NCBI RefSeq assembly: GCF_918731615.1
Contig: NZ_OU957226.1
Location: forward strand, 1,674,001-1,738,000
DNA length: 64,000 nt
Reading direction: 5' to 3'
DNA from: Flavobacterium sp. CECT 9288
Lineage (GTDB): Bacteria > Bacteroidota > Bacteroidia > Flavobacteriales > Flavobacteriaceae
Below the pieces are notes generated by a model that saw only the letters and a program-made list of their open reading frames with translations, searched no databases and was not told where the DNA came from. Positions 15,888 to 29,215 of this stretch are shown one piece after another. The translations under genes were made by a program, and so were the position numbers. The number at the start of each line of letters is the position of its first letter. The stretch's first letter is position 1.

Positions 15888-16292
15888 CTATTTATCAAAC
15901 TGATCGTCAAAATGTTTTTTCAAAAAAGAAATTTGAATAAATAACATTAAAGTTGCTAAAACAACTGCGTAAATTGTGATTTTAGGGAAAATATATATTG
16001 AGGTTATATTAAAATTGGGAATGAAATCGAAATTTGGATAATTAACCAAAGTATCTGTTTGGGTTTCTTTATTAATAAAAATATAAATAAATGATATAAT
16101 AAAACATCCCAAAATAATTATGAAAACTGGCTTTGAAATCAATGGTTTATAAACATAAACTTCACTGGTTTTTGCGTCCAATACTTGCGACATTACTTTT
16201 GAAGTAAAATCAAACGAAGGGGTTTCTAATACAGAATCCTTCATCATATTATCTACAAATTTCTCTAACAGTTCATCTTCGTTCACTTTCAT
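15888..16292 (-). CDS. Predicted membrane-bound partner of the ECF sigma factor
   Basis: A 134-aa protein with a soluble N-terminal part (about 1-50, MKVNEDELLEKFVDNMM) and two hydrophobic segments (about 51-70 and 97-118). No zinc-binding anti-sigma (ZAS) HxxxCxxC motif is visible. Its start overlaps the end of the ECF sigma gene by 20 bp, implying translational coupling, and the cytoplasmic-tail-plus-membrane layout is that of anti-sigma factors. The anti-sigma role is inferred from position only. Confidence 0.7.
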   Translation of the reverse strand: MKVNEDELLEKFVDNMMKDSVLETPSFDFTSKVMSQVLDAKTSEVYVYKPLISKPVFIIILGCFIISFIYIFINKETQTDTLVNYPNFDFIPNFNITSIYIFPKITIYAVVLATLMLFIQISFLKKHFDDQFDK

Positions 16293-16863
16293 AATATGCT
16301 AGTATTTCGGGTTCTAATCGCTCTCTTAAAATTGAAGCTAATTTTTTTCGACTTCTAAATAATTTTACTTTAGCATTATTTGAATTGCAATCTATTACTT
16401 TTGCTATTTCTTCTATAGATTGGTCATCAAAATAATACAAAGTTAGCAAAAACGCTTCTTCGCTGGGTAATAATAACAAACATTCTTGAATTTTTTGATT
16501 CCTCTCATTTTCATCAACTGTGCTCAAAACCTTTTCAATTGCTTTTACTTGATGTTCGCTAAAATCTTCTATATAAAGAACACTTCTCTCTTTTTTAACT
16601 TTTTTTAATCTATCTAAACAGGTATTGTAGGTGATTGTATAAATCCAAGTCGAAAATTTAGATTCTCCTTTAAATTTAGGCAATGAATTAAAAACTTTTA
16701 CAAACGTATCTTGGGAAACTTCCTCTGCTTCTTCTTTGTTTTTCAGCATTTTATAAGACAAAGTAAACACCAAATCTTTATATTGGTTTACCAATATAGA
16801 AAATGCGTTTGTGTTCCCTTTGATTACTTGGTTAATATGATATTGATCGTTTATAAAAGCCAT
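16273..16863 (-). CDS. ECF-type RNA polymerase sigma factor
   Basis: A 196-aa sigma-70 family protein with region 2 (LVNQYKDLVFTLSYKML, then EEVSQDTFVKVF and STWIYTITYNTCLDRLKK, residues about 23-95). Region 4 runs from about 128-185 (EEAFLLTLYYFDDQSIEEIA, a helix-turn-helix recognising -35 DNA). It is followed by an overlapping membrane-protein gene and divergent from a small membrane protein and a serine hydrolase. Upstream of it lies GTAACC-N16-CGTCTTA, mirrored on the other strand, suggesting self-activation and co-activation of the divergent genes. Confidence 0.93.
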   Translation of the reverse strand: MAFINDQYHINQVIKGNTNAFSILVNQYKDLVFTLSYKMLKNKEEAEEVSQDTFVKVFNSLPKFKGESKFSTWIYTITYNTCLDRLKKVKKERSVLYIEDFSEHQVKAIEKVLSTVDENERNQKIQECLLLLPSEEAFLLTLYYFDDQSIEEIAKVIDCNSNNAKVKLFRSRKKLASILRERLEPEILAYYESERR

Positions 16864-18616: not shown

Positions 18617-19636
18617 TTATTTTTTTTCAAAATAAAGATAATTGGTATTACTACTTACAGCACGTAGCCGTATTTGGGAATTATTAAACTCAAATAATTC
18701 CCAATAAGTATTCAGTTTACTCAGTAATTGTGAATTGAAATTTATTTTTAGTTTTCTTACTCCATTCAGTAGTACATATTCCCATTGCCCAGTTTCAATA
18801 CTACCTCCTCTTGTAGCGACAACCGTATAATCATTTTTAAAGACAAATGAATAATCGCTATACAAGGAAGTTTTATCTAAAGTAACAAAAAAATAAGGGA
18901 TTGCCCATGAACCCTTTGTTATTGTTTCTGTAAAATCTAGGGACACAATATTATTTTCTGGGGAGTAATCAATAGCATATTTGATTGCATTTTCGAAATC
19001 TTGATTACTTGAAATCGTCCTTGGTTGATTATTATGATCCACTATTGAAATAGGATATTGTAAAGAAATATATTGACTAGCAGTCAAATTTTTTATAAAA
19101 TAAAAAAAGGCTTGATCGCTAATGATTGACATGGAACTAGCGAACTGATTAGAACTGTTATAAATATTTATTGTAATTGGATAATTAATATTTAAACCAT
19201 TAATCTTACTCAAAAGATCAGGATATAGATTCCAATAATCAATTAAGGATTTAAAATCAGCCTCATTTGGAATCAATTTTTCGAAGTAATTATAGTACAC
19301 CATAGTTACTGGAAAATCTATTTTTACGATATCATCATCAGTAGCATTTGCAGTAATATTATCTACTACTTTTTGATAATCGGAAATAGTATTTACGGCT
19401 ATGTTTGTATTGTTAACCGTAAGTGTATAAGGAAGTTTTATGGTACAATAACTGGACTTGTCTATTATATTATCTTGTACCGTTTTGACCATTGCAACTC
19501 TTTGCAGATAAGTCGTAAGAGGAGAAACATTTGTAACTGTTCCCTGTATATTATTATCCTCTTCTACTATTTCGCTTTGGCAAGATAATAAAACTAGGAA
19601 AACTGCTATTGATATATATTTTTTTAAAGGGAACAT
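18617..19636 (-). CDS. Secreted lipoprotein with internal repeats
   Basis: A 339-aa lipoprotein from ATG 19636 (MFPLKKYISIAVF) with lipobox LVLLSC; an in-frame ATG at 19699 would place 21 residues before the signal peptide. The mature part has repeated units of about 75-85 aa, each with a beta pattern such as KLPYTLTVNNTNI, NYPITINIYNSS or QYPISIVDHNNQ. Each is followed by a helical stretch (ISDYQKVVDNI, SNQDFENAIKYAI) and a closing VKIDFPVTM/VSLDFTETI strand. The last 90 aa resemble a small lipocalin-like barrel. No function is known. It is divergent from the FecI-type sigma gene and has a copy of the three-fold motif upstream. Confidence 0.8.
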   Translation of the reverse strand: MFPLKKYISIAVFLVLLSCQSEIVEEDNNIQGTVTNVSPLTTYLQRVAMVKTVQDNIIDKSSYCTIKLPYTLTVNNTNIAVNTISDYQKVVDNITANATDDDIVKIDFPVTMVYYNYFEKLIPNEADFKSLIDYWNLYPDLLSKINGLNINYPITINIYNSSNQFASSMSIISDQAFFYFIKNLTASQYISLQYPISIVDHNNQPRTISSNQDFENAIKYAIDYSPENNIVSLDFTETITKGSWAIPYFFVTLDKTSLYSDYSFVFKNDYTVVATRGGSIETGQWEYVLLNGVRKLKINFNSQLLSKLNTYWELFEFNNSQIRLRAVSSNTNYLYFEKK

Positions 19637-19767: not shown

Positions 19768-19796
19768 TAAAACAATCAGTCTTGTTTTTACCCTAC
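19768..19796 (-). promoter_or_regulatory. Three-fold sigma motif, copy A (leftward)
   Basis: On the minus strand GTAGGGTAA (complement of 19788-19796), 13 bases, then TGTTTTA (complement of 19768-19774). The same words and spacing occur at 20362 and 23916. It points toward the repeat lipoprotein, about 130 bases before its start. Confidence 0.6.
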
Positions 19797-19812
19797 TTAA
19801 ATTAAAAACAAA

Positions 19813-19820
19813 TACTTTTG
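19813..19820 (+). promoter_or_regulatory. Housekeeping -7 element of the FecI-type sigma gene
   Basis: TACTTTTG matches TAnnTTTG 23 bases before the sigma ATG at 19844. No clear -33 TTG is present at 19 bp. Confidence 0.5.
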
Positions 19821-19843
19821 CATGGTATAAATTGAAAATATAA

Positions 19844-20359
19844 ATGCCAAATACGAACCAATCTAACACTTGCGACGAAATAATCTTTTCCTCATTTTTC
19901 AAAAGTCATATAAAAGCACTTCGGAATTTTCTTATTTACAAATTTGGCAATCAAGAACAAGCAGAAGATGTAGCACAAGAAGCTTTTGTCAAACTCTGGC
20001 AAAACTGTGATGCAGTGCCGATTGAAAAGGCAAAGTCCTATATTTATACGATAGCAAACAATAGCAGTTTAAATGAAATTGCACATCAAAAAGTGGTGTT
20101 GCGATATGAAAAAAACTTTACAGGTTTAGATAAAACAAATGAAAGCCCAGAATATCTTTTGGAGGAAAAACAATTTCAAGCAAAACTGTTGAAAGCCATT
20201 GAAAATTTAAACGAAAAACAACGCGTGGCCTTTTTGATGCATCGTATTGATGGAAAAAAATATAGCGAAATTGCATTGGATTTAAATATTAGCGTAAAGG
20301 GAGTAGAAAAGCGCATTCATTTGGCTTTAGTAAGCTTACGCAAAGAAATTGATTTGTAA
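19844..20359 (+). CDS. FecI-type ECF RNA polymerase sigma factor
   Basis: A 171-aa sigma factor: region 2 (NFLIYKFGNQEQAEDVAQEAF, then AKSYIYTIANNSSLNEI) spans residues about 20-85. Region 4 is at about 118-165 (LNEKQRVAFLMHRIDGKKYS, SVKGVEKRIHLAL). The FecR gene follows 49 bp downstream, then a TonB-dependent receptor, the standard cell-surface signalling arrangement of Bacteroidota. It has its own housekeeping -7 element. The motif GTAGGGTAA-N13-TGTTTTA follows its stop codon and is a candidate target site. Confidence 0.93.
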   Translation: MPNTNQSNTCDEIIFSSFFKSHIKALRNFLIYKFGNQEQAEDVAQEAFVKLWQNCDAVPIEKAKSYIYTIANNSSLNEIAHQKVVLRYEKNFTGLDKTNESPEYLLEEKQFQAKLLKAIENLNEKQRVAFLMHRIDGKKYSEIALDLNISVKGVEKRIHLALVSLRKEIDL

Positions 20360-20361
20360 AA

Positions 20362-20390
20362 GTAGGGTAAACAGAGTCCCAGTTGTTTTA
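20362..20390 (+). promoter_or_regulatory. Three-fold sigma motif, copy B (before FecR)
   Basis: GTAGGGTAA at 20362-20370, 13 bases, TGTTTTA at 20384-20390. It lies in the gap between the sigma and FecR genes, 18 bases before the FecR start. Confidence 0.65.
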
Positions 20391-20408
20391 ATATATAATA
20401 AAAGTACA

Positions 20409-21308
20409 ATGAAAGAAAATCACATACTAGCGAAATGGCTCAACAATGATTTGTCAGAGGATGAATTAATGGCATTTGAAGCAAGTCCCGATTTTGAAAA
20501 ATACCAAAAAATTAAGGACTATACCGCACATTTAGAAGTAGAGGATTGGGATGAAAATGCGATGCTAGCGAATATTCTAAAGCAGAAAAAAACAGTTACA
20601 AAAGTAGTTCCTTTATACAAAAAATGGTTCTTTCAAGCAGCGGCAATCCTTGTTTTGGCGCTTGGAATTACTTTCGCAATCCAAAATTTTGTACCACAAA
20701 CACAAACAGCAAACTTTGGTGAAAAAACTACCTTTCTATTACCGGATAATTCCGAAGTGGTGCTGAATGCGGGTTCTGAAATACACTTTAAAAAATGGAA
20801 TTGGGACAGCAACAGATATCTTGAACTAAACGGAGAAGCTTATTTCAAAGTAGCCAAAGGAAAACGTTTTGAAGTGCAGACTAATCTGGGGAAAGTTTCC
20901 GTTTTAGGGACGCAATTCAACGTAAAAGCTAGAAAAAATAGGTTTGATGTTGTCTGCTACGAAGGATGTGTAAAAGTAAATTATGGAAACACTCAAGTGC
21001 TGTTAACGCATGGACAAAGCGTTATTTTTGAAAATGGTAAACAAATAAATAGAGGAACAACTTCATCGAAGCCAGAATGGATGGACAATCAAATCGCTTT
21101 TTATAAGGAAAATATCAAATCCTTGCTAGACGAAGTTCGTAGACAATACAATATTACAATTGAAGTAAACGCAAAAGATACTACGTCCTTATTTACTGGA
21201 AAATTGCCCACGAAAAATCTAGATGTTGCTTTGCAAATAATTAGTACAACCTATAGTTTAGAGATAAAAAAAGTCTCAAAGAATAAAATAATATTTGACG
21301 AAAAATAA
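20409..21308 (+). CDS. FecR family anti-sigma/sigma regulator
   Basis: A 299-aa inner-membrane regulator from ATG 20409 (MKENHILAKWLNNDLSE); the frame extends upstream across the promoter motif and that part is not coding. It has an N-terminal cytoplasmic domain (1-80), one membrane helix (about 83-100, WFFQAAAILVLALGITFAI) and a periplasmic FecR domain. That domain shows TTFLLPDNSEVVLNAGSEI and GEAYFKVAKGKRFEVQT, followed by a C-terminal DUF4974-like segment that resembles the receptor STN fold. It transmits receptor status to the upstream sigma factor. The receptor gene starts at the base after its stop codon. Confidence 0.93.
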   Translation: MKENHILAKWLNNDLSEDELMAFEASPDFEKYQKIKDYTAHLEVEDWDENAMLANILKQKKTVTKVVPLYKKWFFQAAAILVLALGITFAIQNFVPQTQTANFGEKTTFLLPDNSEVVLNAGSEIHFKKWNWDSNRYLELNGEAYFKVAKGKRFEVQTNLGKVSVLGTQFNVKARKNRFDVVCYEGCVKVNYGNTQVLLTHGQSVIFENGKQINRGTTSSKPEWMDNQIAFYKENIKSLLDEVRRQYNITIEVNAKDTTSLFTGKLPTKNLDVALQIISTTYSLEIKKVSKNKIIFDEK

Positions 21309-23840
21309 ATGTTGTACCCCAAACAATTTTATTTTTTGTTTTTTACATTTTTTCTTGTCCTGAGTCTATCTGCTCAGGACAAAGAAAAGAGTATGCCCTT
21401 TAAAAAAATTATAATTGAGATCGAACAACAGCATAAGGTTAGCTTTAATTACACCGAAGACAATATCACGGGACTGCAACTACACCCTCCTAAAAGGTCA
21501 CTTTCACTAAATCAAAAACTACAATATCTTGAAAGAAAGACCAATTTGTCTTTTGAAAATATAGGAAATCAATTCATTAATATTTACAAAAAAGACAAGG
21601 AAGCTAATATAATTTGTGGCTACGTTTTTTCGGCAGACAAAAAACCTATCGAGAACGCAAATATCAATTTAAACGATAAAATCCAGCTTACAACGGATGC
21701 AAATGGTTATTTTGAAAGTGAAAAATCTGAGAAAAACATACTCTGGATTAGTCATATCGGATACATAACCAAAAGAATTGTTGCTACTAATTCAGGTCAT
21801 AAAAAGTGTTTGGAAATTCTATTAGACCCTGATATCACAGAACTAGAAGAGATTAAAACCAATGCTATTTTGGCTTCGGGAATCTCAAAAAGTAAGGACG
21901 GTTCATTTGAAATTAAACCCAAGAAATTTGGTATTTTGCCAGGACTTATCGAGCCAGATGCTTTGCAAACAATGCAGCAAATTTCAGGTGTAAATAGTAT
22001 TGACGAAAGTGTGTCTAGCATCAATGTACGCGGTGGGACTCACGACCAAAATTTATTTTTGTGGAATGGAATACGAATGTTTCAAACGGGACATTTTTTT
22101 GGTTTAATATCGGTTTTTAATCCTAATTTGGCTCATACTATTGCTATCTATAAAAACGGAAGTTCTGCTTTTTATGGGGAAAGTGTGTCTAGTGTAGTAA
22201 ATATTTCTTCTACTCCAGAAACTGCAGAAAAAAATACTTTTAGCGCAGGAATCAACATGATTAATGCTGATATGTATGCAAAGTACAACCTTTCGAAAAA
22301 GAGTTATATCGAAATTGCTGCACGTAAATCGATTACTGATTTTATAGAAACTCCCACCTTTAAAGAATACTTCAATAAAATATTTCAAAATACAACAATC
22401 TCTGATTTCTCCAAAAATCAAAATATCAAGTATCAAAGCGATAAAGAATTTGATTTCTATGATGCAACGCTTAAATATGCTCAAAAAATAGGAGCCAAAG
22501 ACCAAATAGTACTGGATGTAATAACCATAAAAGACAATTTGAAAGTGTTACAAAGTGCGGCTACAAACGACCTAAACAAATCAGAAAAAAATGTGTTGCA
22601 GCAGCAAAATTATGGCGGAAATTTATCTTGGAAAAGAAAGTGGAATAGCAAGAATACTTCTAAAATTAATACTTATAACTCTTCCTATAAACTTTTGGCC
22701 AACCAAAAAGCTACTACTGGGAATCAAATCGTTATTCAGGAAAATACAGTGCAAAATAATGGAATAAATTTGGAAAATAACCATACCATTAGTGCTGAAT
22801 TTAGTTTTAATAATGGTTATCAGTTTAACGAAATAGGAGTTACGAATTTGGAGCAGGTAACTAATCCTGATTTTTATCGTAAAACCAAAGAGGTGTTGAG
22901 ATCGCATACTTTGATTTTGGAAGGAATATATAATGACACCATTTCTAGAATATATGGTAAGCTAGGAACACGAATGAATTATATCGAAAAATTTAATAAA
23001 TATATTGTAGAACCAAGATTTCAGTTGAATTACGGCATTAGTAAAAGTCTGAATATAGGACTATTAGGTGAGTTAAAAAGCCAGAATTCGCAACAGATTA
23101 TTTATTTGCAAAAAGATTATTTCGGCATCGAAAAAAGACGTTGGGTTTTATCAGACAACACCACAGTTCCTATTCAAAGGAGCAAACAAGTATCGTTGAA
23201 TTTATTTTATAAAAAGGACGATTGGATCTTGGATATAGAAAATTTTTATAAAAAAGTTACTGGAATTACAACCTCAAGTCAAGGTTTTCAAAATCAATTA
23301 GAGTTTATTCGAACAACAGGAGATTATGAAATATTTGGAACAGAAATTCTGATTCAAAAAAAGATGAATCACTTTCTTACTTGGGTAAGTTATACTTATA
23401 ATGATAATAATTATGATTTTTCTAATTACGAACACCCTATTTTTCCTAACAACTTTGAGTTGATGCATACTTTTTCGTGGGCAGGAGTTTATGAGAGAAA
23501 CAATTTCAAAATGGCACTCGGTACAAAATGGACTTCAGGTAGACCAAAAACCTCTCCAGCTAGTTCGCAAATCGACCCTTCTAACCCCGTGATCAATTAT
23601 AATAAACCCAACAATACCAATGTAAACGTTTTTTCACAAGTTAATCTTTCCGCTACTTACAAGTGGGTAACTGCAAATGGAGTCCAATATAAATTAGGAA
23701 TATCCATCTTAAACATCTTGAACAGAAAAAATGAGATTAACGAGTACTATAGAATTAGCTCTTTATCAAACGCTATAGAGGAAGTGGAAACTTTTTCACT
23801 TCAAAGAACGCCAAACATAAGCTTCAGAATTTCATTATAA
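21309..23840 (+). CDS. TonB-dependent outer-membrane receptor with STN signalling domain
   Basis: An 843-aa receptor with a signal peptide ending near LSLSAQ (residue 22). A short secretin/TonB N-terminal domain follows (about 27-95, KKIIIEIEQQHKVSFNYTED). Then come a carboxypeptidase-like regulatory domain (about 97-170, GYVFSADKKPIENANI), a plug (about 210-300; ALQTMQQISGVNSID, SINVRGGTHDQNLFLWNG) and a large beta-barrel to the end. The substrate is unknown. The protein has no SusD partner, which argues against a polysaccharide-utilisation type and for a metal, haem or small-ligand receptor, but this is inference. A terminator follows. Confidence 0.92.
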   Translation: MLYPKQFYFLFFTFFLVLSLSAQDKEKSMPFKKIIIEIEQQHKVSFNYTEDNITGLQLHPPKRSLSLNQKLQYLERKTNLSFENIGNQFINIYKKDKEANIICGYVFSADKKPIENANINLNDKIQLTTDANGYFESEKSEKNILWISHIGYITKRIVATNSGHKKCLEILLDPDITELEEIKTNAILASGISKSKDGSFEIKPKKFGILPGLIEPDALQTMQQISGVNSIDESVSSINVRGGTHDQNLFLWNGIRMFQTGHFFGLISVFNPNLAHTIAIYKNGSSAFYGESVSSVVNISSTPETAEKNTFSAGINMINADMYAKYNLSKKSYIEIAARKSITDFIETPTFKEYFNKIFQNTTISDFSKNQNIKYQSDKEFDFYDATLKYAQKIGAKDQIVLDVITIKDNLKVLQSAATNDLNKSEKNVLQQQNYGGNLSWKRKWNSKNTSKINTYNSSYKLLANQKATTGNQIVIQENTVQNNGINLENNHTISAEFSFNNGYQFNEIGVTNLEQVTNPDFYRKTKEVLRSHTLILEGIYNDTISRIYGKLGTRMNYIEKFNKYIVEPRFQLNYGISKSLNIGLLGELKSQNSQQIIYLQKDYFGIEKRRWVLSDNTTVPIQRSKQVSLNLFYKKDDWILDIENFYKKVTGITTSSQGFQNQLEFIRTTGDYEIFGTEILIQKKMNHFLTWVSYTYNDNNYDFSNYEHPIFPNNFELMHTFSWAGVYERNNFKMALGTKWTSGRPKTSPASSQIDPSNPVINYNKPNNTNVNVFSQVNLSATYKWVTANGVQYKLGISILNILNRKNEINEYYRISSLSNAIEEVETFSLQRTPNISFRISL

Positions 23841-23850
23841 AGCACTCTTT

Positions 23851-23896
23851 ACAAGGTTCTTACAAATAACCTTGTCCTTCTTTTTATTTTTTTTCT
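23851..23896 (+). terminator. Terminator after the TonB-dependent receptor
   Basis: ACAAGGTT (23851-23858) pairs with AACCTTGT (23868-23875) and is followed by a T-rich tract. It separates the receptor unit from the OB-fold/beta-barrel unit, which carries its own motif. Confidence 0.8.
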
Positions 23897-23915
23897 AAAA
23901 ATAGCAATTATTTAG

Positions 23916-23944
23916 GTAGGGTAACCTGGACCCTAGCTGTTTTA
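23916..23944 (+). promoter_or_regulatory. Three-fold sigma motif, copy C (before the OB-fold gene)
   Basis: GTAGGGTAA at 23916-23924, 13 bases, TGTTTTA at 23938-23944, 26 bases before the ATG at 23971 and just downstream of a terminator. This placement makes a promoter role likely. Confidence 0.65.
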
Positions 23945-23970: not shown

Positions 23971-24375
23971 ATGAAAAGAAAAAAAACAGCAACAATATTT
24001 GTAACGCTACTCCTACTAGCATCAGCAGGTATCTATTTTTATTATGGTTTTCTATTTAAAGAAGCACGCAATATAGAATCCGAAAAACCAACAGTAAGTA
24101 CATCTGCGACAAATCTGATGAATGAGTATAATTCAAATCAAGAAAAGTCAGATTCACTGTATTTAAATAAAACTATTGAGGTAACTGGAAAAGTAACTAA
24201 AGAAACGGATTCTGTAGTGGTTCTCGATAGCATTGTTTTTTGCCTTTTCATTAAAAAGAAAAGAAACAAACTATTAAATAGTCGACTATCCGTTAAAGGC
24301 AAATGCATTGGTTACGACGAGCTATTTCAAGAAGTTAAACTAGACCAATGTATCATTAATAAACAAAGCAACTAA
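23971..24375 (+). CDS. Membrane-anchored OB-fold (tRNA_anti-like) protein
   Basis: A 134-aa protein with an N-terminal membrane anchor (about residues 6-25, ATIFVTLLLLASAGIYF). A periplasmic OB-fold-like domain follows, with NKTIEVTGKVTKETDSVVVL and SRLSVKGKCIGYDELFQEVK. The pattern of a strand opening with an I-x-V-x-G-x-V block, an isolated cysteine pair and a closing V-K-L-D-Q-C strand fits the tRNA_anti-like family of Bacteroidota envelope proteins. It is the first gene of a four-gene run led by motif copy C. The function is unknown. Confidence 0.75.
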   Translation: MKRKKTATIFVTLLLLASAGIYFYYGFLFKEARNIESEKPTVSTSATNLMNEYNSNQEKSDSLYLNKTIEVTGKVTKETDSVVVLDSIVFCLFIKKKRNKLLNSRLSVKGKCIGYDELFQEVKLDQCIINKQSN

Positions 24376-24383
24376 TCCATTTT

Positions 24384-25226
24384 ATGAAGAATTTTTTAAT
24401 CTCTACCTGTCTTTTTTTGACTACTCTAGCCTATTCACAGGATGATTTACTTAATAGTCTTGATACGAATCAAACAGCTGAGAACTACAGTACCGCTACT
24501 TTTAAAGCACTGCAACTGGTAACCTTACAAACTACAAAAATGCCTGCCAAAAAAGAATTTTATTTTGTGGTATCTCATCGTTTTGGCTCTGTTGAAGATG
24601 GTTTGGATAGTTTTTTTGGTCTAGATAATGCCACAACAAAACTTGGTGGTATTTATGGAATTACAGAATGGCTATCCGTTAATGTTTCTCGACATACTTT
24701 AAACAAAATGTATGAAACAGGAATAAAGTACCGAATGGCAAGACAAGGCGATAGTTTTCCTCTAGACATTGTGGGGTATTCCGTGGCAGATATTAATACG
24801 TTTTTAGAGAAGAAACAATTTCCTGGCTTAGAATTTAAGCACCGTATAGCTTATGTTCAACAGGTATTGATATCAAGAAAGGTGAATGAAAAACTGTCAT
24901 TAGAATTGATTCCTTCATTTGTACACAAAAATCTTTACAATCCTGATATAGAAAGAGACAATCAGTTTTCTTTTGGAGGAGGTGGACGCTTTAAAATCAC
25001 CAAAAGATTATCAGTCAATCTAGAATACATGCACAATTTTGACAAGCCTAAATTTTATACAAACCCATTATCAGTGGGACTTGATGTAGAAACAGGAGGA
25101 CATGTTTTTCAACTCATATTTACCAATTCACAAGCCATGAGCGAGAGTGCGTATCTTACCAATGCATCTGGCGAATGGGGTAAAGGAAATTTCTTTTTCG
25201 GATTTAACTTATACAGAGTATTCTAA
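24384..25226 (+). CDS. DUF5777-like outer-membrane beta-barrel protein
   Basis: A 280-aa exported protein with signal peptide MKNFLISTCLFLTTLAYSQ. The mature sequence has alternating amphipathic strands and the segments KEFYFVVSHRFGSVEDGLDSF and FGLDNATTKLGGIYGITEW, which I recognise from DUF5777 barrel proteins. It ends in a strand NFFFGFNLYRVF with terminal phenylalanine, the usual outer-membrane insertion signal. Members often sit beside cytochrome c and YceI genes, as here. The function is not established. Confidence 0.8.
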   Translation: MKNFLISTCLFLTTLAYSQDDLLNSLDTNQTAENYSTATFKALQLVTLQTTKMPAKKEFYFVVSHRFGSVEDGLDSFFGLDNATTKLGGIYGITEWLSVNVSRHTLNKMYETGIKYRMARQGDSFPLDIVGYSVADINTFLEKKQFPGLEFKHRIAYVQQVLISRKVNEKLSLELIPSFVHKNLYNPDIERDNQFSFGGGGRFKITKRLSVNLEYMHNFDKPKFYTNPLSVGLDVETGGHVFQLIFTNSQAMSESAYLTNASGEWGKGNFFFGFNLYRVF

Positions 25227-25249: not shown

Positions 25250-25642
25250 ATGAAAAAAACAATTGCACTAACAATTTTACTTGCTGGATTATGGAGCTGT
25301 AGTTCTGACACTACCGACACTATTGAACCAATAGCTAATCCTGCACCAAATCCTACGCCAAATCCTACACCTCCAACAGCATCAACATTTACTTATAATG
25401 GAAATGCAAAGACTATTGTAGACAACAATTGTGTACGCTGCCATTCAAGTGGAGGTTCTGCTTCATTTAGACCTTTAACAACATTTGCACAAGTAAAAGC
25501 AGCTGTTGAAAACGCAAATTTATTAGGCCGTATACAATTACAAAACGGACAATCAGGAATTATGCCACAAGCAGGAAGAATGTCTCAAGCGAATATTGAC
25601 ATAATTCTTAAGTGGAATACAGATGGACTTAGAGAGAATTAA
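25250..25642 (+). CDS. Cytochrome c-like lipoprotein
   Basis: A 130-aa lipoprotein with lipobox LAGLWSC (Cys 17) and a proline-rich spacer of NPxP repeats (about residues 29-42). A single c-type haem motif CVRCH lies near residue 61, and a candidate distal methionine is in GIMPQAGRM (about 104-112). It should be anchored to the periplasmic face or cell surface and carry one haem. The small size fits a mobile or tethered electron carrier. The neighbouring barrel and YceI protein suggest a joint envelope function, which is unproven. Confidence 0.87.
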   Translation: MKKTIALTILLAGLWSCSSDTTDTIEPIANPAPNPTPNPTPPTASTFTYNGNAKTIVDNNCVRCHSSGGSASFRPLTTFAQVKAAVENANLLGRIQLQNGQSGIMPQAGRMSQANIDIILKWNTDGLREN

Positions 25643-25777: not shown

Positions 25778-26332
25778 ATGAAAAAATCCTTTATCAACTC
25801 CTTTTTACTCTTATTGATTATTCTAGTAAATACCAATGGATTTGCTCAAAAACTGATAACAAAAACAGGAAATATAAAATTTCAGGCTTCTATGCCTTCC
25901 TATGAAGAAGTTGCGGCTGAGAATAAAAGTGTATCTGCAGTTTTAGAACAATCAACGGGTGATTTCGCAGCTTTAGTTCTCATAAAAGGCTTTCGTTTTA
26001 AAGTGGCTTTAATGGAAGAACATTTCAATGAAAACTACATGGAATCAGAAAAGTTTTCGAAATCAACTTTAAAGGGAAAAATTGAAGATTTTGATTTTTC
26101 AAAAATAACAAATACCACAAAAAATTTTACTTTAAAAGGAGATTTAACCATTCACGGTAAAACTAAACCAGTATCAGTGATCATAAAAGTTGTAAAAGTT
26201 GCAAACGGTGTTAATGCTACTGGCTCATTTGAAGTGAAACCAGAGGATTTTAATATTGACATTCCTAGTATAGTGAGTAAAAAAATTGCCGATAAAGTAA
26301 AAATTGCATACAATTTCACATTAACTAAATAA
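25778..26332 (+). CDS. YceI family periplasmic protein
   Basis: A 184-aa exported protein with signal peptide ending near NGFAQ. The mature part is a lipocalin-like barrel of the YceI family: KTGNIKFQASMP at the beginning, then KNFTLKGDLTIHGKTKPVSV and ATGSFEVKPEDFNIDIPS. YceI proteins bind isoprenoid lipids such as quinone-like molecules. It lies 135 bp after the cytochrome c gene and is the last gene before a strong terminator. Confidence 0.92.
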   Translation: MKKSFINSFLLLLIILVNTNGFAQKLITKTGNIKFQASMPSYEEVAAENKSVSAVLEQSTGDFAALVLIKGFRFKVALMEEHFNENYMESEKFSKSTLKGKIEDFDFSKITNTTKNFTLKGDLTIHGKTKPVSVIIKVVKVANGVNATGSFEVKPEDFNIDIPSIVSKKIADKVKIAYNFTLTK

Positions 26333-26401: not shown

Positions 26402-26437
26402 AGGAGGTCAGTTTACAATTAGACTGACCTCCTTTTT
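26402..26437 (+). terminator. Strong terminator after YceI
   Basis: An 11-bp stem AGGAGGTCAGT (26402-26412) with ACTGACCTCCT (26423-26433), followed by TTTT. It closes the cytochrome c/YceI unit. Confidence 0.92.
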
Positions 26438-26459: not shown

Positions 26460-26849
26460 ATGATTTGTATAAATTATGTTGTTACTGGACAGGATGTAAA
26501 TGATGATATGGAAATGGAAAGCACCGCATACATTTCATATACGTTACGTTTATTGTATCGTTTTTTGTTTGATAATGGATTTTCAAAAGAGAAGCTCAAC
26601 GCTAAGCATCTGGGTCTTCAAGTAGAGAATCATGAATTAGTTTGTTATAAAAATTTGATGTTTACTGAGTCTTTTTTTATCAAAATAGAAAATTATTATA
26701 TTGGTGATAAAATCAAAATTAAAAGCTGTTTTTTTAACTCAAAAAACGAATGCTGCGCAGAAGTTACTAAAGAAGTAGAATGGTTTGATTGTGTTCGCAA
26801 AAAAGTTATTCCAACCCCTAAAAAATATTTTCATAATAATCCAGTTTAA
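26460..26849 (+). CDS. Putative hotdog-fold thioesterase-like protein
   Basis: A 129-aa cytoplasmic protein with no signal peptide. The central and C-terminal part (LVCYKNLMFTESFFIKIENY, YIGDKIKIKSCFFN, AEVTKEVEWFDCVRKKVI) resembles the strand pattern of 4HBT/YbgC-type hotdog acyl-CoA thioesterases. The catalytic Asp-containing N-terminal loop is not clear. Several cysteines and a short length make it a diverged member at best. It lies convergent to the response-regulator gene, separated by 145 bp. Confidence 0.5.
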   Translation: MICINYVVTGQDVNDDMEMESTAYISYTLRLLYRFLFDNGFSKEKLNAKHLGLQVENHELVCYKNLMFTESFFIKIENYYIGDKIKIKSCFFNSKNECCAEVTKEVEWFDCVRKKVIPTPKKYFHNNPV

Positions 26850-26993: not shown

Positions 26994-28031
26994 CTAATTC
27001 CGCATTTTACAAATTTTATCAAAATTAAGAATTGTTAATACACTTCCTTTTTTTTTAATCAGACCTTCATTTTTGAATTCTGTCAATGTCCGACTTACGG
27101 TTTCTGAGGCGGTTCCAGTTAGTGCGGCAAGTTCATCCCTACTAATTCTAATACTAGTTTCATTTTTAAACAATCTCAAAATTGCCTCAGCAAGTCGTTT
27201 TCTAACTGATTGATAAGCAAGTTGCAATAAATATGCGTCTTTGTTCCGAATTTCACTGGAAAGGATTTCAATAAATTTTCCTGCTACATCAGGATATTGC
27301 TGTAACATTTGATCAAATTGAATTTTAGGAAAAAAGCATAAATAACTATCTTCCATGGCAGTTGCTGTATCATCGTAGGGTTTGCTGGAAAGAATAATGT
27401 TGATTCCTAAAAAATCTTCTTTTTGGTATATTCCTGTCATCAGTTCATGACCATCTTCGGTCATTTTAATAGTCTTAATTTTACCTGAAATTACAAGGTA
27501 AATACCAGTAGCATTGTCACCTTCATAGTGTATGACTTGATTCTTTTTGAACAATCTAGTTTTTCGTTCGGCTATGATTTTTTTTAACTCGTTTAATCCA
27601 TTATTTTTTGAAACAATTTTATCCAGACTCTCTAGAGATTTACTGTAAAAATGATGTTGACATTCTTTTTTCTTTAATCTACTTTCAATAGCATTGAGAA
27701 GTTCTAATCTACCAAATGGCTTTGTAAGATAATCATCGGCTCCCATTTCCATTCCCTTACGCAAATCAAGTCGTTCTGATTTTGAAGTAATAAAAATAAA
27801 GGGAATGTTAGTAGTTTCGGTATTTTTATTAAGGAGATACAGTACTCCATAACCGTCCAATTCAGGCATCATGATATCGCACAGAATGACGTTTGGTAAA
27901 TATATTGTAGCCATATCAACCCCTTCCTTTCCATTTTTAGCAACAATGACTTCATAGTCTGCCAATTCTAGGATTTCAACTATATTTTCCCTTATTTCAT
28001 TATTGTCTTCAATTACTAATACCTTGCTCAT
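26994..28031 (-). CDS. Response regulator fused to a Crp/Fnr-type regulator
   Basis: A 345-aa protein with three parts. A receiver domain (1-125) has IEDNNE acidic pocket, Asp52 in ILCDIMMPE and the conserved Lys in LTKPFG. A cyclic-nucleotide-binding-like domain (about 150-270) has HYEGDNATGIYLVISGKIK. A Crp-type winged helix (about 285-345) shows ISRDELAALTGTASETVSRTL, the recognition helix signature. No cysteine cluster for an FNR iron-sulfur centre is seen. Its start codon overlaps the end of the upstream PAS kinase gene, its probable partner. It likely controls the surrounding stress genes (inference). Confidence 0.92.
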   Translation of the reverse strand: MSKVLVIEDNNEIRENIVEILELADYEVIVAKNGKEGVDMATIYLPNVILCDIMMPELDGYGVLYLLNKNTETTNIPFIFITSKSERLDLRKGMEMGADDYLTKPFGRLELLNAIESRLKKKECQHHFYSKSLESLDKIVSKNNGLNELKKIIAERKTRLFKKNQVIHYEGDNATGIYLVISGKIKTIKMTEDGHELMTGIYQKEDFLGINIILSSKPYDDTATAMEDSYLCFFPKIQFDQMLQQYPDVAGKFIEILSSEIRNKDAYLLQLAYQSVRKRLAEAILRLFKNETSIRISRDELAALTGTASETVSRTLTEFKNEGLIKKKGSVLTILNFDKICKMRN

Positions 28032-29215
28032 ATTGTTGAAAATGTTAGTGTAAATAAAGTCCCTTTGTGTATTTTACTTACACACGAAACAGTACCCTTC
28101 ATTAAGGCGATATAACGTGCCACGATATTTAAACCAAGTCCAGTACCTGGAATATTACCCGTATTATGTGCTCTGAAAAAAGGTTCAAATAAATGCAATT
28201 GATCTTCATCAGGAATCCCTATTCCTTCATCTTTCACGCAAATGATACAATGTGTATCATTTATTTCGGTAGTAAATTCAATAGTACAACCATCGTCTGA
28301 ATATTTTATAGCATTGGTAATTAGATTGATAATGCTATTTTTAATTAGATTTTGATCTAAGTTTATAGCTTTCTGAAATCCATAATGAGTATGTTGTATT
28401 TGCTGATTGTCTTTTGCTAATAATTGCATTTCCTCAGTAATCTCTTCGGCTAATTGCACTAGATCAAAACATGTGGGTTTTGCATTTACTTTACCTACTT
28501 CTAATTGTTCTATGTATAAAAAGTCATTTAGTATGGTGGTCAAATTTGTAACAGCATTAATTATTTTACCAGCATGTTTGATGATATTAGCATTCTCTAA
28601 CGGTTCAGCATATTTTTCGATAAGAGAAGCTGATAAATGTGCTGTGCTTAAGGGAGTACGAAACTCATGCGAAGCCATTGATAAAAAACGATTTTTTAAT
28701 TTACCAATAATCTTTTCCTTTTCTAAAGTAGCACTTACTTTTGCTTTTGCTTTTTCAAGTGCTTTAATCGTATCGTTTAAGGTTTTTGTTCGCTCTTCTA
28801 CAAGTTCTTCTAGATGGGAAGCATAATTTTTAAGCCTTTCTTCATCCTTTTTTTGCTGGGTAAGATCATGAATAAATCCCGCATAAATTTTTCTTCCTGC
28901 ATAATTCACCTCGCTTACACCAATTTTAAATGGAAATTGATTTCCCTTTTTAGTTTTACCTATTAGTTCTCTTCCAATTCCAATTATATGGGATTGACCA
29001 GACATTTTATAGTCTTTTAAATAGGAATCGTGAGCCTCTTTATTACCAAAAGGCATGAGCATTGATATATTTTTTCCTAAAACCTCTTGTTCTGAATAAG
29101 CAAATAATTTACAAGCTGATGGATTAATACTTTCTACAATGCCTAGTTCATCAATAGTTACGATTCCGTCAATAGCGTTATGCACTAGGGCATCTAGTAA
29201 AGCAGATTTCTCCAT
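28028..29215 (-). CDS. PAS-domain sensor histidine kinase
   Basis: A 395-aa soluble kinase. The PAS domain (about 1-125) includes NAIDGIVTIDELGIVESINP and is followed by a coiled coil. The dimerisation/phosphoacceptor domain has SMASHEFRTPLSTAH (His near residue 180), and the HATPase part has NLITNAIKYS (N box), VKDEGIGIPDED (G1) and GTGLGLNIV (G2). No membrane helices are seen, so the signal is cytoplasmic or membrane-diffusible. PAS sequence resembles FixL-type domains (SMLMPFG, GIGRELIGKTKKG), which can bind haem and sense oxygen, but a haem-ligand His cannot be asserted. It overlaps the next gene by 4 bp. Confidence 0.93.
   Translation of the reverse strand: MEKSALLDALVHNAIDGIVTIDELGIVESINPSACKLFAYSEQEVLGKNISMLMPFGNKEAHDSYLKDYKMSGQSHIIGIGRELIGKTKKGNQFPFKIGVSEVNYAGRKIYAGFIHDLTQQKKDEERLKNYASHLEELVEERTKTLNDTIKALEKAKAKVSATLEKEKIIGKLKNRFLSMASHEFRTPLSTAHLSASLIEKYAEPLENANIIKHAGKIINAVTNLTTILNDFLYIEQLEVGKVNAKPTCFDLVQLAEEITEEMQLLAKDNQQIQHTHYGFQKAINLDQNLIKNSIINLITNAIKYSDDGCTIEFTTEINDTHCIICVKDEGIGIPDEDQLHLFEPFFRAHNTGNIPGTGLGLNIVARYIALMKGTVSCVSKIHKGTLFTLTFSTI

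Follow-up and report, generated by a model that had tools for sequence, protein, structure and literature searches.

The window described here, a stretch of 64,000 nucleotides from Flavobacterium sp. CECT 9288 (contig NZ_OU957226.1, positions 1,674,001 to 1,738,000), carries a locus encoding a FecI-type sigma factor of the extracytoplasmic function (ECF) class, a FecR-type regulator and a TonB-dependent receptor, with a divergent lipoprotein gene to the left (unit A) and OB-fold, DUF5777, cytochrome c and YceI genes to the right (unit C); FecR and the receptor form unit B. A preliminary description of this DNA had noticed the same pair of words, GTAGGGTAA and TGTTTTA, before each unit, and had taken them for the probable recognition sequence of the sigma factor. 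In this study, we followed the motif through the genome, the genus and the family Flavobacteriaceae. The comparisons indicate that it is very probably the -35/-10 promoter read by polymerase carrying the sigma factor encoded at 19844. The elements of the locus, with positions counted from the first letter of the window, are the following.

18617..19636, minus strand: lipoprotein with N-terminal repeats and a C-terminal lipocalin-like domain (residues 232-339), divergent partner of the sigma gene
19768..19796, minus strand: site A, GTAGGGTAA-N13-TGTTTTA, predicted FecI-type promoter, leftward into the lipoprotein gene
19813..19820, plus strand: TACTTTTG, match to the primary-sigma TAnnTTTG box, 31 bases upstream of the sigma ATG, predicted housekeeping promoter of the sigma gene
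19844..20359, plus strand: FecI-type ECF sigma factor, 171 amino acids
20018..20026, plus strand: codons of sigma residues 59-61 (Pro-Ile-Glu), presumed specificity (L3) loop, among the residues separating TGTT-type from TGTC-type sigmas
20362..20390, plus strand: site B, same GTAGGGTAA motif, 2 bases past the sigma stop codon and 18 bases upstream of the FecR ATG
20409..21308, plus strand: FecR-type sigma regulator, 299 amino acids (PF04773, E 2.8e-17; FecR_C, E 7.6e-9)
21309..23840, plus strand: TonB-dependent receptor, 843 amino acids (plug domain, E 3.7e-8)
23851..23875, plus strand: possible weak terminator hairpin in the gap between receptor and site C (8 bp, -7.3 kcal/mol, z -2.8)
23916..23944, plus strand: site C, same GTAGGGTAA motif, 26 bases upstream of the OB-fold gene ATG
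23971..24375, plus strand: OB-fold (tRNA_anti-like) protein, 134 amino acids (Pfam)
24384..25226, plus strand: DUF5777 beta-barrel protein, 280 amino acids (Pfam)
25250..25642, plus strand: c-type cytochrome-like lipoprotein, 130 amino acids, below the Pfam cut-off, with one CVRCH motif visible in the translation
25778..26332, plus strand: YceI-like protein, 184 amino acids (Pfam)
26402..26433, plus strand: strong terminator closing unit C (14 bp stem, -22.1 kcal/mol)

Motif copies and genes at the locus

All three copies are free of mismatches and keep a gap of exactly 13 bases, while their spacers are unlike one another; positions and strands agree with those first described. The preliminary description had also proposed a scan of the genome and of related flavobacteria. 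Within the whole genome of 3.70 megabases (Mb), the exact motif GTAGGGTAA-N13-TGTTTTA is found three times, always at the FecI/FecR locus, and its reversed control not at all. The looser core GTAGGGTWW-N13-TGTYNNA retrieves the same three sites alone (control 0). Allowing two mismatches yields 8 matches for the motif vs 12 for the reversed control, which is not above control, so that only the full motif is informative.

The genes behind the three sites agree with the earlier assignment to a lipoprotein, to FecR with a TonB receptor, and to an OB-fold, beta-barrel, cytochrome c and YceI unit. The sigma factor consists of sigma-70 region 2 (Pfam r2, E 1.1e-12) and region 4 (r4_2, E 3.3e-16) alone. 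It scores 125.9 bits against TIGR02985 (Sig70_bacteroi1; curated cut-off 126.4) and 70.1 bits against the ferric citrate FecI model NF041727, for which the cut-off is 260. By these sequence hallmarks the locus classifies as a FecI/FecR/receptor system, a clear STN domain excepted, and by the NCBIfam cut-off not as a ferric-citrate FecI. The groups ECF240 and ECF239 of the 2021 ECF classification are tied to Bacteroidetes. PF04773 has a single match in the whole genome, the FecR of this locus. At its N-terminus the receptor has no STN match and a weak FecR_C match (residues 28-90, E 0.044), and a sequence search of solved structures found no relative of the receptor at E 0.001. The lipoprotein has no Pfam or NCBIfam match. 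Its Cys19 is invariant in 30 aligned sequences, and Foldseek with VIA-align points to a lipocalin-like fold of the C-terminal part, the best rows mainly spanning that domain and barely covering the repeats. No paper on DUF5777 was found in the literature search.

A terminator had been claimed just before site C. The 8-bp hairpin there is plausible, but modest, and a pattern scan limited to loops of 3-8 did not list it.

The sigma gene itself has no copy of the motif before it in this genome, and the sigma is therefore probably not its own target. TAnnTTTG is the box of the primary sigma (PMC9723704). Such a box lies 29-39 bases upstream of the sigma start in 50 of 72 relatives (none in 20, farther up in 2; shuffled sequences 2.5%), the 72 being those of 78 loci with a full-length stretch. 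We infer that the sigma gene is transcribed from a housekeeping promoter.

Conservation and distribution of the motif

Most of 80 named relatives' loci show the motif at A, B and C with a nearly constant N13, the exceptions being L087 and L088, which lack the C site, and L073 and L074, which lack a clear A site. In F. johnsoniae, strain CI04 (L049) is exact at all three sites. Near relatives have a strict-core site at A in 65 of 78 loci and at B in 74 of 78, and all 77 loci showing both the receptor and the DUF5777 gene have at least one between them (two sites in 9). In dereplicated sets, information content is highest at both words and lower in spacer and flanks. Sites persist in many loci whose sigma ortholog is as little as 57% identical and whose lipoprotein is near 30%.

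Cataloguing 119 loci, with L139 and a 10-base filler excluded, gave 319 core sites, of which 103 lie upstream of the lipoprotein family, 96 upstream of FecR, 41 upstream of a PF03640-type lipoprotein family (a label resting on one tested member) and 38 upstream of the OB-fold gene. The core site thus precedes FecR in 96 of 119 loci, where the median distance from site B to the FecR start codon is 18 nt. Rarer targets are an HxlR regulator (8), an acidic lipoprotein without Pfam match (7), a long secreted protein (3), a cytochrome c, a di-haem lipoprotein, a PepSY-like lipoprotein and a small secreted protein (2 each), and a Rieske protein and a sigma (1 each). The remainder comprises single cases, among them a signal recognition particle (SRP) GTPase, and 8 sites with no open reading frame in reach; 4 of the 319 lie inside open reading frames. 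Most of the recurring targets are envelope proteins, with several redox carriers among them.

Unit C and its surroundings vary among the relatives. Many of the loci L009-L086 have a lipoprotein gene (PF03640 in the tested member) with its own motif copy inserted between the receptor and the OB gene. In the same loci, unit C occurs in about three versions, with DUF5777 about 85%, 64% and 52% identical to that of the window, in the same place and behind the same promoter, as if cassettes had been swapped. An HxlR-type regulator gene stands directly behind a motif copy upstream of the OB gene in L016, L019, L052, L059 and four more loci.

Across the genus, the exact motif occurs in 120 of 398 genomes with 241 matches in total; one control match was noticed, in G181. 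With a best E <= 1.1e-55 as the criterion for a sigma ortholog, 116 of 171 genomes with an ortholog contain the motif vs 4 of 227 without (Fisher p 1e-51). In two genomes the motif stays with unit C apart from the sigma gene: in G227, unit C lies on another contig than the sigma and a divergent di-haem lipoprotein is also found behind a site, and in G312 unit C lies 0.79 Mb from the sigma. The earlier suggestion that one sigma would control both the receptor and an electron-carrier unit is supported in so far as the motif accompanies the unlinked unit, but the dependence of the unit on the sigma is still something we infer.

The -10 base and the sigma specificity loop

A sister FecI subfamily in 15 genomes (nearest sigma 46-51% identical) has the same gene order, and the sites recognised at its A and B positions read TGTC. 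Exact sites all read TGTCTTA in these 15 genomes and TGTTTTA in the window-type genomes, with one exception in G227, which precedes a second FecR accompanied by a sigma of its own with the C-type loop IDFNK. A T-type and a C-type sigma coexist in G145, G291 and G227, either one next to its matching letter (in G145 the T-type at A only). Sigma matches of at least 80% identity in the genus set stand beside TGTT at A and at B in 81 of 81 cases. The 28 sigmas below 55% identity have TGTC in 21 cases and no site in 7 at B, and TGTC in 21, no site in 6 and TGTT in 1 at A. Seven TGTC-type genomes (L224-L230) also have an unlinked TGTCTTA site 7-53 bases upstream of a gene for a conserved secreted protein of about 155 amino acids (170 in one) with a His/Cys-rich stretch.

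When 119 T-type sigmas are compared with 21 C-type sigmas (140 of 147 distinct sigmas, the 7 without clear site left out), the columns separating them with an overlap of 0.03 or less are residues 59, 60, 61, 141, 151 and 168, plus residue 2, which is present in just two C sequences. Mutual information names residue 59 as the best predictor of the -10 base among 171 columns (0.519 bits); this set holds 78 sigmas (67 T, 11 C) of 94 dereplicated from 235 distinct ones, among which are those of 88 added loci, all but one from other Flavobacteriaceae genera. C-type sigmas occupy three places in the tree: a D/E59 clade, made up of 8 rows plus the mixed L292; the pair L233/L234, in which two residues of the specificity loop are deleted; and L331 with Ser59-Phe60-Asp61. 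Four label changes were counted, at least three of them required by well-supported branches; mixed rows were treated as a separate group, and gains and losses were pooled.

An acidic residue 59 as the sole rule for C was rejected, since L291 has Glu59 beside T, and C goes with Ser59 in L331, with Arg59 in L233 and with a gap in L234. Taken as a whole, the loop appears to describe T/C specificity better than residue 59 alone. Residues 59-61 lie in the presumed specificity loop according to an alignment with SigW. They would correspond to residues 72-79 of Mycobacterium tuberculosis sigma-H, a match that is indirect because the alignment was made to SigW and not to sigma-H. In sigma-H, the -10 base after G-T is flipped out and taken up by these loop residues (PMC6411747). 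The T/C base and residues 59-61 of the Flavobacterium system would be positional counterparts of the flipped base, the 'master nucleotide' of ECF promoters, and of the loop before the conserved aromatic residue (PMC6411747); in contrast to sigma-H as described there, T and C alternate here within one family of FecI systems, along with the loop. One letter of the signal thus tends to change together with the part of the sigma expected to read it.

Proposed promoter function and the wider module

Uniqueness in the genome, conservation with diverging spacers, co-occurrence with the sigma and covariation of -10 base and loop together support the proposal that GTAGGGTAA-N13-TGTTTTA is recognised by the sigma at 19844. 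The position of site B upstream of FecR and the receptor, and its covariation with the sigma, point to a putative sigma-dependent promoter. Several observations weigh against this view. Fifty-five of the 171 genomes with a sigma ortholog lack an exact site; many of those inspected retain degenerate sites, some none at A or B. Of 15 exact sites in 14 places outside the locus, taken from among the matches listed, 8 are within 131 bases of a secreted protein or lipoprotein gene, 4 are inside open reading frames and 3 precede no likely target. A sigma paralogue of 59% identity in G361 (L133) has the motif directly before its own gene and may activate itself, and the further FecI-like paralogues L235 (G291), L236 (G145) and L232 (G120) have no such site. 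Residue 151, in sigma region 4 and not expected to touch the -10 element, predicts the -10 base nearly as well as residue 59 (0.498 bits), so that the covariation partly reflects clade structure. The bootstrap of the larger tree is unsettled, L288 and L292 are loci mixed for T and C, and L291 combines Glu59 with a T promoter.

A dimeric protein could likewise bind two words at a constant distance, and the motif might be the operator of an activator or repressor encoded elsewhere; HxlR-type regulator genes behind the motif in 8 of 119 loci (one of the eight identified by Pfam) could be quoted for this. We consider it very improbable, as the words form neither inverted nor direct repeats, their spacing and their distance to the start codon are suited to -35 and -10 elements, and the -10 base that sets the subfamilies apart is the base which the ECF specificity loop reads and with which that loop covaries. 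Slightly less probable again is a real promoter read by another ECF sigma, e.g. that encoded at 16273-16863, the FecI-type sigma having other targets. ECF promoters can be cross-read and the genome holds 9 matches to this sigma at E <= 1e-3, itself counted. However, the presence of the motif tracks orthologs of this very sigma in the genus counts given above, the -10 letter tracks sigma subfamily and loop, and each of the T-type and C-type sigmas coexisting in G145, G291 and G227 adjoins its own letter. That the three copies are a recent duplication of one regulatory stretch without present function is hardly credible. The OB gene and the PF03640 lipoprotein do have sites with long flanks in common, and two sites occur in 9 of 77 loci, so that site C has been copied in some relatives. 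Yet spacers and flanks differ among A, B and C, and the words persist in orthologs with as little as 57% identity and, but for one altered base, in the sister subfamily.

With the motif read as the promoter of the FecI-type sigma, the following regulation may be proposed. The sigma would be made from its housekeeping promoter and, by analogy, be restrained by FecR. A ligand at the TonB receptor would be signalled through FecR, again by analogy, and release the sigma. The holoenzyme would then transcribe three units together from sites A, B and C, namely the lipocalin-like surface lipoprotein (A), FecR with the receptor (B) and the OB-fold/DUF5777/cytochrome c/YceI genes (C). With site B placed after the sigma gene and before FecR, FecR would be produced along with the receptor, and transcription of unit B would provide more receptor plus a built-in brake. 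Unit C may have a redox or lipid-carrier role.

Like the FecI-FecR-FecA system of E. coli, the locus has adjacent genes for an ECF sigma, a FecR regulator and a TonB receptor, a predicted sigma-dependent promoter before the receptor unit, and a sigma gene that is apparently not self-activated (PMC9249621). The fecIR genes of E. coli form a single Fur-controlled transcript without autoregulation, and FecI is described as serving just one promoter (PMC9249621); here, a site lies between sigma and FecR, and at least three predicted units are served, including the divergent lipoprotein and the redox-type unit. The ECF-sigma/anti-sigma systems of Bacteroides polysaccharide loci likewise pair sigma and anti-sigma with a receptor, SusC-like in that case, and for BT1877/BT1876 loss of the anti-sigma raised receptor transcripts 50-fold on glucose (PMC11501099). 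Unlike these loci, the Flavobacterium locus has no SusD or glycan enzyme among the genes shown, and its receptor stands with a lipocalin-like lipoprotein. The SM6 promoters of F. psychrophilum are ECF-type promoters of the same genus with mapped transcription starts and a CGT box in the -10 element, serving type IX secretion system and other genes; FecI and FecR are unmentioned in the main text of that paper (PMC9723704). A literature search covering few subscription journals found no promoter for a FecI-type system in Flavobacterium. The novel elements are the promoter, the position of FecR under its control, the recruitment of a redox unit and the covariation of promoter and sigma.

Translations of neighbouring genes show further features. 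About 3 kb from the FecI-type sigma, the stretch 15888-16863 encodes a second ECF-type sigma (196 amino acids, 16273-16863) followed by a small membrane protein resembling an anti-sigma factor. A small thioesterase-like protein (26460-26849; weak 4HBT_2 match, E 0.04) adjoins unit C in many relatives, despite lying past the terminator. On the other strand, 26994-29215 encodes a response regulator fused to a CRP/FNR-like domain and a PAS histidine kinase.

In Flavobacteriaceae beyond the near relatives, 88 loci were compared, which are part of the matches listed. To the left of the sigma, 85 of the 88 have an open reading frame, and in 77 of these 85 family-level loci, as in 15 of 15 sister loci, it matches the lipoprotein profile (E below 1e-3). 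This makes the lipoprotein a core component of the module, and plausibly a surface partner of the receptor. When the best-scoring site in a short stretch is counted, without a shuffled control, 83 of 88 loci have GTAGG...GT at A or B, and 63 at both. The -35 element at B, likewise without a shuffled control, reads GTAGGGT in 38, GTAGGA in 27 and otherwise in 2 of the 88, with none in 21. We do not take covariation of this G/A difference with residue 159 as established, since residues 43 and 38 score equally and the 14 GTAGGA-type sigmas form one tree group. Unit C is not core to the module, as its genes are nearby in just 5 of 28 further, mostly distant, T-type loci (one a near relative, one partial).

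On balance, we lean towards an old surface-signalling module of Flavobacteriaceae, in which FecI stands between a divergent lipocalin-like lipoprotein and FecR with its receptor, and in which the promoter code would have two settings: a 'master' -10 base that is either T or C and is recognised by loop residues 59-61, and a -35 element, GTAGGGT or GTAGGA, perhaps read by the recognition-helix residue 159. Repeated flips would have insulated paralogous modules of one cell from one another, and one Flavobacterium clade would have recruited the periplasmic electron-carrier/YceI unit. A promoter unique in its genome makes such regulons readable from sequence, and it links the receptor to the unexplained cytochrome c/YceI/DUF5777 unit. 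The T/C switch, with one promoter base and about three co-varying sigma residues, offers a natural test of how duplicated ECF systems become orthogonal, and matched pairs of promoter and sigma could be of use in Flavobacterium genetics.

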